From Pelosinus sp. UFO1 (GTDB lineage: Bacteria; Bacillota; Negativicutes; DSM-13327): a stretch of 64,000 nucleotides of DNA. The stretch covers positions 2,571,693-2,635,692 of the forward strand of contig NZ_CP008852.1 of assembly GCF_000725345.1 (NCBI RefSeq). The letters are read 5' to 3'. A program made the position numbers and the translations under genes. Positions 7,579 through 58,549 of the stretch are shown piece by piece. The notes beneath the pieces were generated by a model. It did no database searches and had not been told where the DNA came from. It was given only the letters and a program-made list of their open reading frames with translations. How positions within the stretch are numbered: position 1 is the stretch's first letter; each line of letters starts with the position of its first letter.

Positions 7579-7602
7579 ATGACAGAACATATGCTCTGTC
7601 AT
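7579..7602 (+). terminator. Terminator after the 45-aa ORF
   Basis: The perfect 8-bp repeat ATGACAGA / TCTGTCAT is followed by TTTTATTTT on the plus strand. Confidence 0.8.
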
Positions 7603-7666
7603 TTTTATTTTGCCCTCACATAAAATCATACTATGAATATATTGTCTATCTTTTATGGAGGATAAT

Positions 7667-9138
7667 ATGAATGCACTATATGTGAGAGTCTCAACAGATG
7701 ACCAGGCCCTTAAGGGCTATTCACTAGACGACCAAATCGAGGCATGTCGCAAACATTTATTAGCACTTGGCTCTACCAACGTAGAAGAATATATTGACAA
7801 TGGCTACAGTGGCGAATTCTTAGAACGTCCAGGCCTTGAAAGGCTACGGGAAGATCTGCAAAAAGGCATAATTAAAACAGTAGCTATTTATGATCCTGAC
7901 CGTCTTTCCCGCAATCTTACCAATCAATTGATCATTGCTGCAGAAATAGAGAAAGCTGGTGCAACTATTACTTTTGTAACGGGTGACTATGACTCCTCCC
8001 CTGAAGGCCATTTATTTTTCAGCATGAAGGGTGCCATATCTGCCTATGAAAAAGCAAAAATACGTGAACGCACCTCTCGTGGCCGGCGAGCAAAAGCAAA
8101 TAAAGGAAAAATCGTCTTTAATGCTCACCCTTTTGGTTATGACTGGGATAAAAAAAATAGCATGTATATGATTAATGAAGAAGCAGCTAGAACCATACGC
8201 TTGATTTATGATTTATGCATTAATCACGGATTTGGGTCTAGAAAAATTGCCTTAGAATTATTGCACCTCGGTGTTGTTGGCATTAACGGACGCCCACTCT
8301 CAACCTGTACTGTCTCACGTATACTCACCAAAGAAATGTACCATGGACAACACCATCTATTTAAACAAAAAACCAGTAAAACTGGCCAAAATACACGTGA
8401 AATAAAAACCAATCCTCAGGAGTTATGGATTCCCGTCAATATACCAGCTATAGTAACCAGAGAAATATGGGAAGCGGCCAAATGCAAATACAAAAAAATA
8501 AAAAATTAGCAAAACGTAATAATAAGCACCGTTACCTGCTGCGAGGATTATTATATTGTGCCCTCTGCGGACGCTCCATGACGGCCTATGCTCGCACTTC
8601 TAAACGTAAAACAGGTGACGATGTAATCTATTATTATTATTCCTGCATTTCGAAAGAGTCAAGCTCCTATGCACTTAATGGTACTCCCTGCACATGCCGT
8701 AGAATTCCCGTGGATGATTTGGATTCTGCCGTTTGGGAATTTATTATTTCTATCGCCAAAAATAATAGTCAGTTAAAAGATTACTTATATTCCAAAAATA
8801 ACCTCACTTACTCAAAAGAAATTAGCTACTTAAATAACCTCCAATTAGAACTTAAGAAAAAACAGATGAATACTATGCGCTGGTATCATGAAAACACAAT
8901 CGACTACGAAACAGCAGAAAAGGCATTAAAGAATATTAACTCAGAATTAGAGACTATTCATACCACCCTTTCTGAATTAACAATATCTCAAGAAAAAGAA
9001 AACCAGCTGGTTCTATCACCAGCTGATTTTTTAAAAGCCAAAACCTTTAAAGAAAAACGGAATGTACTCACGAAACTTCCCTATCGCGTCTATGCGGCGC
9101 GGCAAGAGGAACATTTTGAGTTCTTTTTTGAAAGATAA
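7667..9138 (+). pseudogene. Large serine recombinase, frameshifted
   Basis: Two overlapping frames encode one serine recombinase. The first (7667-8509) holds the catalytic domain (YVRVSTDDQ with the nucleophile serine) and the recombinase domain. The second, entered near 8490-8506, holds the zinc-ribbon region (CALCGRSM) and coiled coil. The break is at adjacent A7 and A6 tracts, so one lost A explains it; adding one base restores KKNKKLAKRNNKH. It could be a true pseudogene, a homopolymer sequencing error, or less likely programmed slippage. It is clearly homologous to the prophage integrase at 56403-57815. It is convergent with spoIIR, as the integrase is with sigE. ATG at 7667 follows TGGAGG. 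Confidence 0.85.
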
Positions 9139-10923: not shown

Positions 10924-10972
10924 ATTCCATACGTAGTATTTCCTTACGTAACCTTTTTATAATTCTTTTCTC
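10922..10972 (-). pseudogene. Stranded 3' end of the host sigE gene
   Basis: On the minus strand this encodes EKRIIKRLRKEILRME and a TAG stop, which matches the C-terminus of SigE proteins (B. subtilis has EKRIIKRLRKEF). Nine of 16 residues equal the present SigE tail. It has no upstream gene: sequence past 10972 is phage DNA. It lies 234 bp upstream of sigG, where the end of sigE normally lies. I read it as the host part of an att split, not as an independent sigma gene. Confidence 0.85.
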
Positions 10973-15383: not shown

Positions 15384-15623
15384 TCATTTTCGTTCCATAA
15401 ACCACTTGCCCTGATCACAAAATAAATAAACCTGCTTATTACATATCCTGCAAGTATACCTCATTCCCATCCCACCAGCTTTTAATGATGCAGCTTGGCG
15501 AACGTCTAGGAGCTTGTCAACCTCAAATACCCGCCCATCTTCCCATTTAATTGATAATGGTCTAATGTTTCCTTGTATATCATGTCTTGCTGTTACTTCT
15601 ACGAAAACCTTGTAATTGCTCAT
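15384..15623 (-). CDS. Small conserved protein under a LexA-type box
   Basis: A 79-aa protein: VFVEVTARHDIQGNIRPLSIKWEDGRVFEVDKLLDVRQAASLKAGGMGMRYTCRI then a CxxC-containing end and KWFMERK. I recognise this as a widespread small Firmicute family of unknown function. ATG at 15623 follows AGAGGTG. An SOS-type palindrome lies 17 bp upstream, so it should be damage-inducible. It is a single gene with its own terminator. Confidence 0.7.
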   Translation of the reverse strand: MSNYKVFVEVTARHDIQGNIRPLSIKWEDGRVFEVDKLLDVRQAASLKAGGMGMRYTCRICNKQVYLFCDQGKWFMERK

Positions 15624-15640: not shown

Positions 15641-15654
15641 CGAACATATGTTTG
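15641..15654 (-). promoter_or_regulatory. LexA-type SOS box
   Basis: CGAACATATGTTTG differs at one base from the Firmicute LexA consensus CGAAC-N4-GTTCG and lies immediately upstream of the gene at 15384-15623. Confidence 0.65.
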
Positions 15655-54535: not shown

Positions 54536-54739
54536 TTACGCTCCTTCCGCTCTTTTAAATTCTATTTCTAGTTTTAAAACTTTACATGCCATAGCCGTTG
54601 AATCAGCGTTCCATCGCTTATTACCATTTAACAAGTTGTAAGTATATGTAGCCGAAAAGCCTATTTGCTTGGCAAAGTCAGGAATACTAATCTTTTGATC
54701 TTTTAGTTGTTCAACTACAACTTCAGAAAACTTATCCAC
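54536..54739 (-). CDS. Cro-like XRE regulator
   Basis: A 67-aa single-domain helix-turn-helix protein (ISIPDFAKQIGFSATYTYNLLNGNKRWNADS) starting at GTG, 8 nt after GGGAG. It is the first gene of the leftward early operon, divergent from the larger repressor gene and separated from it by six operators. This is the position of Cro. Without a C-terminal domain it should be a small dimeric repressor or activator. Confidence 0.8.
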   Translation of the reverse strand: MDKFSEVVVEQLKDQKISIPDFAKQIGFSATYTYNLLNGNKRWNADSTAMACKVLKLEIEFKRAEGA

Positions 54740-54765
54740 GTTTACAACTCCCTTTTCTTATGTTT

Positions 54766-54940
54766 TAACCTTATGGTTGAATTGTATCCCAATGGGTTAC
54801 TATTAACAATCATCATTTTAAGCCATAAGGATAGTATTTGAGAGTATTTGCAAGCATTATCTCCCTATAGCTTAAAAATACGCAGTTTTTTATTGTTTTT
54901 TAACCTATAGGGATATTGATTTTATTATCCTTATGGGATA
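54766..54940. repeat. Six 15-bp operators TANCC-N5-GGNTA in the immunity region
   Basis: Sites at 54766-54780, 54785-54799, 54819-54833, 54860-54874, 54901-54915 and 54926-54940 share the dyad TAnCC-N5-GGnTA, for example TATCCTTATGGGATA. Three successive centres are 41 bp apart. Site 2 lies between the -35 and -10 of the leftward promoter and site 6 in the spacer of the rightward one. This is a lambda-like multi-operator switch. Confidence 0.7.
54781..54809 (-). promoter_or_regulatory. Leftward early promoter (cro side)
   Basis: TTGTTA and TACAAT with a 17-bp spacer on the minus strand, overlapping operator 2. It drives the Cro-like gene and the early operon. Confidence 0.7.
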
Positions 54941-54949
54941 AGATATAAT
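54921..54949 (+). promoter_or_regulatory. Rightward repressor promoter
   Basis: TATAAT at 54944-54949 has only a weak -35 (TTTATT) 17 bp upstream, with operator 6 in the spacer. A weak -35 fits a maintenance promoter needing help or autoregulation. Confidence 0.55.
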
Positions 54950-54982
54950 CAAATAACGAAATGTTAGGGTGATTTTTTACAA

Positions 54983-55348
54983 ATGGAAAACAATATAAGA
55001 AAAATTAGATTGTCCCAAACAGATAAAAATTTAAGGTCTGGCAATAAGATAGCTGCTTTGCTTGGTATTACGCCTCAGTATTACTACAATTTAGAGACTG
55101 GAAGAGACGGTAAACGGCTAAATATTGATCATATTACCAAGCTGGCGAAGATATTTAATGTTTCTACTGACGAGTTATTAGCAGATAGTATCGTAATTGA
55201 TAATTTTGAAAACGTAGATGATAAACTAATGAAACTTGTCCTTAATGAAGAAAATGCACCTTACATTGTATTAAGTGCAAAAGCTAGAGAAAAAGGGCTT
55301 TCTCCTGAAACCCTTGAAAAGTTAATAGATTTATGGGCATCAAAGTAA
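54983..55348 (+). CDS. XRE-family prophage repressor (CI-like)
   Basis: A 121-aa protein. An N-terminal XRE helix-turn-helix (GNKIAALLGITPQYYYNLETGRDGKRLNIDHITKLAKIFNVSTDELL) is followed by a 50-residue helical tail, not a LexA-type peptidase domain. Lacking a RecA-cleavable domain, it cannot respond to DNA damage by self-cleavage, so an antirepressor would be needed. It faces away from the Cro-like gene across six operators and has its own terminator. Confidence 0.82.
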   Translation: MENNIRKIRLSQTDKNLRSGNKIAALLGITPQYYYNLETGRDGKRLNIDHITKLAKIFNVSTDELLADSIVIDNFENVDDKLMKLVLNEENAPYIVLSAKAREKGLSPETLEKLIDLWASK

Positions 55349-55349
55349 A

Positions 55350-55377
55350 AGAGGCACAGCAATTAAGCTGTACCTCT
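55350..55377 (+). terminator. Terminator of the repressor gene
   Basis: AGAGGCACAGC / GCTGTACCTCT near-perfect 11-bp stem followed by TATTTTTTAT. Confidence 0.85.
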
Positions 55378-55400
55378 TATTTTTTATAATTATGTATATA

Positions 55401-55541
55401 TTATTTTATAGGAATGCTTTTAAATTTATTTTCATACAACGGGTCAACAGCATATGTACCATTCGGCAATCTTAACCATGGTATTTCACCGTTAAAGTCA
55501 ATAAGTTTATATTCTTCTTTATCTATTGTTTCATTTGCCAT
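55401..55541 (-). CDS. 46-aa protein under a LexA box, candidate antirepressor
   Basis: A short acidic ORF (ANETIDKEEYKLIDFNGEIPWLRLPNGTYAVDPLYENKFKSIPIK). ATG at 55541 is preceded by GAGAGGCG. A LexA-type palindrome lies 31-44 bp upstream, next to a TATAAT. It sits between the repressor and int genes, on the strand opposite the repressor. Since the repressor has no cleavable domain, an SOS-induced antirepressor is the simplest explanation, by analogy with Tum or Coi-type systems; no sequence family was recognised. Confidence 0.5.
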   Translation of the reverse strand: MANETIDKEEYKLIDFNGEIPWLRLPNGTYAVDPLYENKFKSIPIK

Positions 55542-55571
55542 AATTAATGCGCCTCTCTTGTTATTTTGTAT

Positions 55572-55585
55572 CGAACATATGTTCT
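55572..55585 (-). promoter_or_regulatory. LexA-type SOS box
   Basis: CGAACATATGTTCT, one mismatch from CGAAC-N4-GTTCG. An ATTATA (TATAAT on the minus strand) is at 55597-55602, so the box overlaps the start site of the transcript for the 46-aa ORF. Confidence 0.7.
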
Positions 55586-55670
55586 ATTTGTATTTAATTA
55601 TACCATGAAAATAATATAAAATCTTAAAAACAATTAATACAGTTTATCTTATAATTCGACAATATAAAAT

Positions 55671-55694
55671 AGACCACCATTATTAAGGTGGTCT
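55671..55694 (-). terminator. Terminator of the XRE gene at 55740
   Basis: AGACCACC / GGTGGTCT stem with ATTTTAT following on the minus strand. Confidence 0.75.
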
Positions 55695-55739
55695 ATAAAG
55701 CGAGTTCTTTGTATTTTTGTTTTTCATTTTACATCATCC

Positions 55740-55964
55740 TCACTCAAACAAGTCTTCAGGATTGCAATTAAACGCCTTACAAAATCCTTGCACTTGTTTT
55801 TTATTAATAGATGTTTTTACACCTGTTGCAATATCACCAATTGCCGTCTTAGAGACACCTGACAACTCAGCAAGTCCCCTTATGGTAAGTCCGTTTTGAA
55901 TGCGAAGGGACTCTATTCTGAGTTTTTTCTTGAAAGTAAACCGCCTCCACTGGTATAAAGTCAA
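55740..55964 (-). CDS. XRE helix-turn-helix protein with doubtful start codon
   Basis: A protein of up to 74 aa whose core SLRIQNGLTIRGLAELSGVSKTAIGDIATGVKTSINKKQVQGFCKAFNCNPEDLF is a complete XRE domain. The Shine-Dalgarno GGAGGCGG is inside the upstream part, and no ATG, GTG or TTG follows it in frame; the only listed start, TTG at 55964, lies next to the predicted transcript start (TATAAT at about 55971). The gene may use a rare start or may have lost it. It may regulate int or the RHH gene. Confidence 0.6.
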   Translation of the reverse strand: MTLYQWRRFTFKKKLRIESLRIQNGLTIRGLAELSGVSKTAIGDIATGVKTSINKKQVQGFCKAFNCNPEDLFE

Positions 55965-56124: not shown

Positions 56125-56174
56125 TCAGCTTACAACTATTACCTGTAATGATATTATTATTACGAGGTGAATAC

Positions 56175-56351
56175 ATGGGAGAATTAAAACATAGAGGGCA
56201 TTTTAGTACTACTGTACCAATTTGGCAAATTGATTCAATTAGAAAATTATCTACTGAAACAAAGATACCAATATCACGATTGACAGAGGAAGCTTTTGAT
56301 TATTTATTAACGAAGTATGGCATAGTTGAGAAAAAGAACCTACCAGGTTAA
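56175..56351 (+). CDS. Ribbon-helix-helix-like protein, candidate recombination directionality factor or regulator
   Basis: A 58-aa protein: HFSTTVPIWQIDSIRKLSTETKIPISRLTEEAFDYLLTKYG, matching the RHH strand-helix-helix spacing used for DNA binding. It is between the immunity region and int, and has its own GAGGTG site and terminator. Small proteins beside serine integrases can be directionality factors, so this is the best candidate, but a plain repressor is equally possible. Confidence 0.55.
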   Translation: MGELKHRGHFSTTVPIWQIDSIRKLSTETKIPISRLTEEAFDYLLTKYGIVEKKNLPG

Positions 56352-56402: not shown

Positions 56403-57815
56403 ATGAGGGGAGTGTTTATTATTAATGTTATATATGCTCGGGTATCGACAGAAGAACAAAAGACAGGTTATTCTATTGATGCCCAACTAAAATCAGCTAA
56501 AGACCGTTATGCATCAATGGGAATAACAGATGTAGTAAATTTTGTTGATGACGGTTATTCTGGCGAATTTATTGAACGTCCAGCATTGGACAGGCTACGC
56601 CAAAGCATCAGGGATAAAACCGTGAGTAGGATAATGTTTTATGATCCTGACCGCATGAGTCGTAATTTAACAGTGCAGCTTATACTTGCCGATGAAATTG
56701 AAAAAGCAGGAATTGAATTGCTATTTGTGACTGGAGATTACGACGCTTCTCCAGAAGGACGTTTATTCTTTAGTATGAAAGGAGCAATTTCAGCATACGA
56801 AAAAGCTAAAATTAGAGAACGTACTATGAGCGGTAAAAGAGCAAAAGCAAGAAAAGGTAAACTTACTTTTAATGATCGTGCTTTGGGTTACGATTATGAT
56901 TACACTATTTGCAACTATATTATAAATGAGGAAGAAGCTAAAACAGTTAAGCTAATTTATGATATTTACTTAAGTGAGAACTTAGGAACAATATCACTTG
57001 CAATAAAATTAAAAGCAATGGGAATAAAATCTAAAAAAGGTAAAGATTTTTCTGGAGGGACTGTGTACCGAATTTTAAAAAATGAGATGTATGCAGGAAC
57101 AAAGCAAGCTTTTAAAATCTATGAGAAAAAAATTAGCCAATATAAGACTCAGAAAATAGCACGTGATCCTTCTGAATGGATACCAATCGAAGTCCCTGCA
57201 ATCGTCACTCGTGATCAATGGGAACGCGTTCAAGAAAGATTAATAGAAAATAAGTTGTTAGCAGCACGTAAGGTTAAACACGACTATTTATTGCGCGGAA
57301 AGATTATTTGTGGACATTGTGGATACGCCATGATTGGCATTACTAGCAACAAAAAAAATAACACCTACCATTACTACTCTTGTTCATCAAAAAACGTCTA
57401 TAAGCGTCCTTGCGACTCTAGGCTCCTAAGGTCAGATGAGTACGACGAGTTAGTATGGGACGAATTAGTTTATATTGCAGAAAACAATATAGAAATTACA
57501 GATAAAAAGACTGAAATTGTAGATAATGAAAAAATTAAAAAACATATCGATACATTAAGGCAAAGACAGTCCGCTTTAACAAAATGGGTAACGGATGGAA
57601 CTATTGAAATAGAAGCTGCAGATCAGCAGTTACAAACTATAAAAAAGGAAATAGACATATCTCAATCTATGCTTAAAGAAAAGCAACCAAAGAAAACAAC
57701 TTTTAACCCTGCTGCGATCTTGGAAGCTATAACCTTTGAGCAAAAAAGAAAAGCAATCTTGGATAGTGGTCTTAAATTCATATTAAAGAAAGGAGATATT
57801 GTTATTGATTATTAA
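56403..57815 (+). CDS. int: Large serine integrase of the prophage
   Basis: A 464-470 aa serine recombinase: resolvase catalytic domain with YARVSTEEQ (nucleophile serine), the recombinase domain with [34 protein letters not shown], a zinc ribbon (CGHCGYAM, later [11 protein letters not shown]) and a coiled coil. ATG at 56403 is the first start, but the only ribosome-binding site (GAGGGGAG, 56405-56412) lies after it. The homologous start is an ATT at 56421 (aligned with MNALYVRVSTDDQ of the 7667 recombinase). A rare ATT start would lower integrase yield. The stop overlaps the sigE stop by 4 bp, convergent. Confidence 0.95.
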
Positions 57816-58549
57816 CCCATCCGCATCATTTCTTTTTTCATCTTTTTTAAGATTCGTTTCTCTAGTCTAGATATGTAAGACTGTGATATCCCTAGCATAT
57901 CTGCTACCTCTTTTTGGGTACGCTCTAGCCCATCATCATGTAGTCCAAATCTTAATTCCATAATACGCCGTTCTCGACCACATAGTTTATTCATCGCAGC
58001 ATGTAATAAAGTTTTATCGACTTCCTCCTCTACAGATTTATAAATAATATCGTTTTCAGTACCCAATACATCGGATAATAGTAGTTCATTTCCATCCCAA
58101 TCAATATTTAGAGGTTCATCAAATGATACTTCTGCTCTTGTTTTACTATTGCGTCTAAGATACATCAATATTTCATTTTCAATACACCTTGAAGCATAGG
58201 TAGCTAATTTTATGCGTTTGACAGGATCGAATGTATTGACAGCTTTAATTAGGCCAATGGTACCGATGCTGACTAAATCTTCAATGCCAACACCTGTATT
58301 TTCGAACTTACGAGCAATGTAAACGACTAAGCGTAGATTCCTCTCGATAAAAATACTTTTTACTCCTAATTCACCTTTTTGCAAACGATTTAATAGAAAT
58401 ACTTCTTCATCATTACTTAAAGGGGGAGGCAGAACTTCTGTACTACCAACGTAAAAAACCTCATCCGTTTCTAATATTCCAAGCCACTGTAATATACCAA
58501 TCATTTTAAGTTTAATTACTATTTTAACTATAGACCATGTCATGCGCAT
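57812..58549 (-). CDS. sigE: Mother-cell sigma factor SigE, with phage-encoded C-terminus
   Basis: A 245-aa pro-sigma factor. The pro-sequence ends at [11 protein letters not shown], the SpoIIGA cleavage neighbourhood. Region 2 ([39 protein letters not shown]) and region 4 ([19 protein letters not shown]) are intact. The final [15 protein letters not shown] comes from the phage side of attR; the original end (EKRIIKRLRKEILRME) lies at 10922-10972. The gene overlaps spoIIGA by 10 bp, and its ATG follows AGAGGGGG. There is no terminator after the stop; transcription should run into int as antisense. Confidence 0.97.
57847..57870. other. attR, right prophage junction
   Basis: Core TTTCTC at 57857-57862 inside the sigE reading frame. 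Left of it (57812-57856) is phage DNA encoding the last SigE residues; right of it is host sigE. It is 42 bp beyond the int stop. Joining the phage sides of attL and attR gives ATTCG-TATTGAGAAA-CGAAT, a dyad centred on GA, as expected of a serine-integrase attP. Confidence 0.7.

Follow-up and report, generated by a model that had tools for sequence, protein, structure and literature searches.

A small protein under a LexA box as candidate SOS-triggered antirepressor of an XRE-repressed Pelosinus prophage

How could a prophage whose repressor has no obvious means of cutting itself come to know that the DNA of its host is damaged? The question arises at the right end of a complete-looking prophage of about 46.9 kb, whose ends (about 10955-10972 and 57844-57862) we place by comparison with the empty site in a close relative; all coordinates are those of the 64-kb stretch of DNA analysed here, the window. 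This right end is a lysogeny region holding a Cro-like gene, a divergent XRE repressor gene, an ORF of 46 aa, a second small XRE gene, an RHH gene and a serine recombinase gene. The sequence-only reading had held that the CI-like repressor lacks a RecA-dependent cleavage domain, and we agree. Pfam finds HTH_3 in it and no protease domain, and the only S24 peptidase in the whole genome is LexA. It is in this respect the kind of non-S24 repressor that LexA-controlled small antirepressors have as their target. A genome-wide search found two M78 (ImmA) proteases, one with its own LexA box, both outside the prophage; no ImmA/M78 gene was found within it. A structure model of the repressor (pLDDT 45) was too poor for use. 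The features that matter for the argument are these:

54536-54739, minus strand: Cro-like HTH protein, 67 aa, start of the early operon (phrog_925, HTH_26)
54740-54982: divergent cI/cro control region, 243 bp, in which 13-bp palindromes like ATCCYTATRGGAT, the proposed CI operators, cluster
54983-55348, plus strand: CI-like XRE repressor, 121 aa, HTH followed by a short C-terminal domain (PYIVLSAKAREKGLSPETLEKLIDLW); Pfam HTH_3 only
55349-55378, both strands: bidirectional terminator hairpin between the repressor gene and the 46-aa ORF, from folding
55401-55541, minus strand: 46-aa ORF (P0001), the proposed SOS-induced antirepressor; start ATG at 55541, stop at 55401, protein MANETIDKEEYKLIDFNGEIPWLRLPNGTYAVDPLYENKFKSIPIK
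55552-55557, minus strand: ribosome-binding site GAGAGG of the 46-aa ORF, read from the sequence, ATG 10 nt downstream
55572-55585: LexA box CGAACATATGTTCT of the 46-aa ORF, 14 bp, exact match, also kept at seven other family loci
55597-55605, minus strand: extended -10 TGG TATAAT (TGGTATAAT) of the predicted promoter of the 46-aa ORF, read from the sequence as a consensus match only, with no good -35
55669-55696, minus strand: terminator of the gene upstream of the 46-aa ORF
55740-55964, minus strand: XRE protein of the lysogeny module, 74 aa (PHROGs and Pfam searches)
56148-56351, plus strand: ribbon-helix-helix protein (Pfam RHH_3)
56403-57815, plus strand: serine recombinase, the prophage integrase (Pfam Resolvase/Recombinase, phrog_95)

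The insertion site is sigE (57812-58549), which encodes a sporulation sigma factor. The prophage sits in the 3' end of this gene and gives it a new C-terminal end of 13 residues in place of IIKRLRKEILRME, the original end is displaced to the left junction, and the recombinase gene and the altered sigE end overlap by 4 bp. Another serine recombinase gene is split, its two ORFs (7655-8509 and 8425-9138) overlapping each other. It lies next to spoIIR at 7584-9138 of the window and is preceded by the near-palindrome AGAACATATGCTCT; it is probably a remnant of another element.

The 46-aa ORF had been described as having a proper ribosome-binding site and lying near the repressor on the opposite strand, and ORF, start codon and ribosome-binding site are all located as claimed. 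Read along the minus strand, the order is the upstream terminator (55696-55669), the -10, the LexA box, the ribosome-binding site, the ATG, the stop codon and the hairpin (55378-55349). The ORF should therefore be a one-gene transcription unit, since the previous gene ends in its own terminator upstream and the ORF has a terminator hairpin of its own. Since the LexA box lies just downstream of the extended -10, the operator would reach into the very start of the transcript; as read from the sequence, it would span about +5 to +18, just 3' of the predicted transcription start. The ORF and the repressor gene are convergent, tail to tail, 53 bp apart, a detail absent from the sequence-only reading, and the hairpin between them folds at -20.8 kcal/mol (z -6.4) on the minus strand and at -16 (z -3.9) on the plus strand.

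We believe the ORF is very likely translated, because dN/dS is low among relatives of its product (0.05-0.23 among five of them in one genus, which indicates purifying selection) and because a family profile built without the window protein recovers it. The AlphaFold model of the protein is a hairpin plus helix (pLDDT 71, pTM 0.36), for which a structure search found no structural relatives. Two other ideas about the locus were set aside. The strong hairpin on both strands and the purifying selection on the protein in relatives speak against the ORF affecting the repressor gene by read-through or as an antisense transcript. If the prophage repressor governed the ORF, operator-like palindromes would be expected at the ORF promoter, and none were found there. 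The control region 54740-54982 holds 4 of the window's 13 strong palindrome sites where 0.05 would be expected, a count that is descriptive because the motif was drawn from that region.

The next question is whether the box is what it seems to be. The consensus of the LexA box in B. subtilis is GAACN4GTTC (PMC4234289). The only exact match to it in the window is at the box of the 46-aa ORF, GAACATATGTTC, which has four occurrences in the 5.1-Mb genome. Boxes of the GAACN4GTTC type stand in the host genome upstream of lexA and the yneA-like gene (CGAACATAAGTTCT), a Y-family DNA polymerase IV gene, an ImmA gene and a radical-SAM gene for repair (names read from the sequences); the one at DNA polymerase IV is GAACATATGTTC, 36 bp 5' of the start. 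The lexA promoters in five genomes of three other genera each carry two or three sites like CGAACN4GTTYG. That the box at the 46-aa ORF is of the host's LexA operator type is well supported by this comparison, since the matching motif precedes lexA/yneA, DNA polymerase IV and the radical-SAM gene. The SOS control first proposed for the ORF is borne out to this extent, with an exact box at the promoter that matches those at host lexA and DNA polymerase IV. Judged by sequence alone, the gene stands directly under a LexA operator, as do the genes of GftA, GfoA, Tum and AntC. The prophage has one other gene with such a box:

15384-15620, minus strand: 78-aa ORF of no known family, with box CAAACATATGTTCG at 15641-15654, 21 bp before the ATG

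It is distant from the repressor and sits with late genes, close to the late end of the prophage. Another prophage-like region of this genome (L065) has a relative of it under CGAACATATGTTCT. We also note an ImmA/M78 gene (L058 1575-2051, genome 2443374) that has a LexA box to itself (CGAACATTAGTTCT, 15 bp upstream of its predicted start).

The protein had been thought to have no known family. For the curated libraries this is correct, as Pfam, PHROGs and NCBIfam give no match; beyond them it does not hold, since there are many relatives. A single-sequence search found relatives in the class, and a profile then gave 24 matches, plus three in other Bacillota, so that the family now counts 27 loci in spore-forming Negativicutes and a few other Bacillota. 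Members are found in Pelosinus propionicus, Sporomusa silvacetica and Sporomusa acidovorans. The protein or domain is about 40-60 aa long, with a core of about 32 residues and the motif YxLxDFxGxxxWxxxxxGxYxVDPxYxxxF. When the window protein is left out of the profile, it still scores 55.7 bits (E=3e-15, 20,000 targets), so it belongs to the family by its motif. Weak matches to long non-ribosomal peptide synthetase frames and to a ribF-like gene were dropped as chance. With the 46-aa protein, tblastn against 50,697 phage records gave nothing better than E=8, and tblastn against plasmids and profile searches of the PDB gave no match. By these searches the family is undescribed so far.

What connects the family to the repressor is its neighbourhood. 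Of the 27 small genes, 15 converge with an XRE gene and three more lie directly 3' of one, so at 18 of 27 loci (the window and 17 others) a partner-type XRE gene stands beside the small gene, convergent or operonic. The convergent partners are 121-137 aa long, at spacings from a 47-bp overlap to a 126-bp gap. The partners have a common C-terminal stretch, PYxxLxxKxxxxGLxPExLEKxIE (of the type PYxxL...GxxPExxxxxI). The other nine members have no partner-type XRE gene alongside, so the family may do more than bind XRE proteins. Four family members without such a gene (L047, L050, L092 and L094) may differ in function, and at L047 and L050 the genes that come after them encode similar-looking proteins (101-114 aa).

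The LexA box follows the convergent arrangement. It lies 34-49 bp before the start codon in 8 of the 15 convergent loci and in none of the 12 others (one-sided Fisher 0.003, for loci that are not independent, as six of the eight come from one bacterial family). The eight are the window, a prophage in genome G306, which is of another family, and six loci of that one family in chromosomal surroundings (genus g40 and one neighbouring genus); they represent three separate lineages. In 407 kb of family loci, seven of the eight exact GAACN4GTTC sites are at family genes. The box is absent from 19 of the 27 loci in all, and because 7 of the 15 convergent loci are among these, SOS control is not general in the family. 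Its non-phage groups are genus g40 and loci with formate dehydrogenase in other Bacillota. In the G306 prophage a Tyr integrase gene, the box CGAACATATGTTCT, a 56-aa member and a convergent 123-aa XRE gene are followed by excisionase-like and phage antirepressor-like genes, and the same region is found on two IMG/VR contigs (proviruses) of more than 80 kb each. The XRE genes of the window prophage and the G306 prophage both occupy the repressor position of the lysis-lysogeny region. In one of these two, the metagenomic provirus L137, the usual ATG is ATA and the LexA box is intact; this copy may be decayed or use another start.

The two partners also diverge together. Distance matrices of the small protein and the XRE protein correlate at r=0.89 across 18 pairs, and with 12 distant representatives a Mantel test gives r=0.56 (p=1e-4). 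Among these 12, the small protein tracks the C-terminal domain of the XRE protein when the HTH is controlled (partial r=0.44, p=5e-4, a weak test with few pairs) and does not track the HTH when the C-terminal part is controlled (partial r=0.05, p=0.33); in the full pair set the partial correlations are positive for both parts. Because in the 12 representatives the divergence of the small protein follows the C-terminal part and not the HTH, this points to the C-terminal domain as the contact. The link of the ORF to the repressor, originally guessed from proximity, is carried part of the way by the pairing at 18 of 27 loci, by the co-divergence and by the like layout in the unrelated G306 prophage.

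One further case bears on the C-terminal domain. The closest relative of the window repressor among 60 genomes, in G013, shares 61% identity with it over the HTH part alone, and its C-terminal half is different. In this region (L132 2258-3351) the repressor gene is followed by an ImmA-type protease gene, then by a 53-aa ORF that has a strong ribosome-binding site and the box AGAACATATGTTCT, and finally by an integrase gene. We rejected the 53-aa ORF as a family member (1.8 bits against the family profile); it could link SOS to ImmA activation. As G013 has another C-terminal half together with ImmA and another SOS ORF, the C-terminal half of the repressor and the damage-sensing device appear, in this one case, to have been exchanged together.

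We believe the 46-aa ORF is probably an SOS-triggered antirepressor of the prophage that acts on the C-terminal domain of the XRE repressor. In the lysogen, LexA on the box just downstream of the promoter would silence the ORF, while the XRE repressor would hold the divergent cI/cro promoters. DNA damage would take LexA off, and the ORF would be transcribed as a one-gene unit. Its product would bind the short C-terminal domain of the repressor, which would then no longer hold its operators, and the lytic operon would be released. This chain, from removal of LexA through expression of the ORF and capture of the repressor to opening of the cro promoter, is the simplest that fits; binding, binding site and derepression are what we infer within it. 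Sequence comparison gives good support to the partnership with XRE genes and to the SOS control, and from there we infer the antirepression. The 46-aa protein probably disarms the repressor and wakes the virus, because a gene switched by damage lies tail to tail with the repressor gene and its relatives in bacteria and phages are paired alike.

The convergent pairing by itself does not give the sign of the effect. The small protein might instead be a cofactor of the opposite sign, a co-repressor or specificity factor that makes the repressor more stable or redirects it, and that under SOS delays or tunes induction. Pairing and co-divergence leave the sign undefined, many family loci have no LexA box, and in the three loci where the small gene is directly 3' of the XRE gene the two would be co-expressed. 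Against this, damage can induce a prophage that has neither a cleavable repressor nor ImmA only if some SOS signal reaches it, and a co-repressor switched on by damage would have the opposite effect, so we consider such a cofactor unlikely. Alternatively, SOS could induce in the protein a small toxin, or an inhibitor of some host process, which the XRE protein regulates or neutralises as an antitoxin. Many short proteins made after damage are toxic, and antitoxins include XRE proteins, but none of the results obtained here favours this reading. The genes, however, are mostly convergent and do not form one operon, the proposed CI operators are absent from the ORF promoter, and the XRE genes of both prophages sit where a repressor gene should be, all of which makes a toxin improbable.

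It is quite unlikely, too, that the ORF is a bystander and that SOS induces the prophage by another route. Such a route could be the 78-aa gene, whose box is the second LexA box in the prophage, or an ImmA of another element that cleaves the repressor in trans; there are the two M78 proteases elsewhere in the genome, one under a LexA box, and MpaR of Listeria is a precedent for a trans-acting protease (PMC6872733). But the 78-aa gene is far from the repressor amid late genes, and a bystander would not be expected to be tied to XRE genes in many genomes as the 46-aa family is. With these other candidates in the prophage and the genome, the 46-aa ORF need not be the only SOS route. That the protein targets LexA or RecA, as GIL01 gp7 or DinI do, and not the XRE repressor, we find barely credible. 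LexA-controlled small phage proteins with such targets exist (PMC4551915); the co-divergence, however, is with XRE genes, and most family loci have no upstream LexA box.

If the 46-aa protein is an antirepressor, a wider proposal suggests itself, which we hold more tentatively and could see going either way. The 40-60-aa family would be widely used, dedicated antagonists of XRE repressors with one kind of C-terminal domain, coupled to DNA damage through LexA boxes in unrelated prophages and at chromosomal XRE loci, and prophages would swap the C-terminal half of the repressor together with its antagonist, be it this protein or ImmA with another SOS ORF. If this is true, the damage sensor is a swappable part of prophages. 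How damage is signalled to prophages with repressors incapable of self-cleavage is understood in a few enterobacterial phages and in the ImmA systems; the present work gives a candidate for Negativicutes and other Bacillota with a likely binding partner and domain named. The protein profile and the DNA signature can be used to find similar switches, and at the chromosomal loci one would expect XRE regulons that DNA damage opens even where the bacterium has no phage at the site.

How does the proposed switch compare with known ones? The last step has a parallel in the TF-smORF modules of Silpe et al. (2023), in which a neighbouring gene encodes a small protein that inactivates the master repressor; in the case shown, this happens without autoproteolysis of the repressor (PMC10432266). 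Those modules are SOS-independent and are switched on by a phage transcription factor, whereas the switch of the 46-aa ORF would be host LexA. SinR and SinI of Bacillus subtilis pair an XRE repressor that has a short C-terminal interaction domain with a small protein antagonist. The XRE profile matches the SinR structure 1b0n, mostly through the HTH, but the 46-aa protein has no match to the SinI domain among Pfam families up to E=1, and the likeness in the C-terminal domain is at the level of arrangement. ImmR/ImmA of ICEBs1 and MpaR of Listeria likewise tie an HTH repressor without self-cleavage to SOS by means of a separate antirepressor. Their antirepressors, unlike the 46-aa protein, are M78 metalloproteases, and both M78 genes of this genome are outside the prophage; an ImmA-type gene is present in G013, the home of the closest relative of the window repressor.

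Close parallels in regulation are the antirepressors GftA, GfoA and GfhA of the Gifsy prophages and FsoA of Fels-1 in Salmonella; in Gifsy, expression of the antirepressor alone induces the prophage (PMC3121763). These too are small phage proteins, LexA-controlled in Gifsy, that inactivate short non-cleaved repressors (PMC3121763). The Gifsy gene lies behind a dinI homologue near replication genes, in a host of another phylum, whereas the 46-aa ORF forms a transcription unit alone and converges on the repressor gene; searches of PHROGs, Pfam and the phage records found no sequence relation to them. Tum of coliphage 186 binds its cognate repressor and blocks operator binding, and Tum and AntC (N15) are SOS-regulated antirepressors (PMC3121763), which is the role proposed here. 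Tum has 146 aa with a DinI-like half, in contrast to the family members of about 40-60 aa, which are unrelated to it by the searches made. By those searches of family libraries and phage records, the 46-aa family is set apart in sequence from the Gifsy antirepressors, Tum, AntC and the TF-smORF modules. What is new is the protein family, the convergent arrangement, the use of this pair in chromosomal settings too and the domain that is the likely target.
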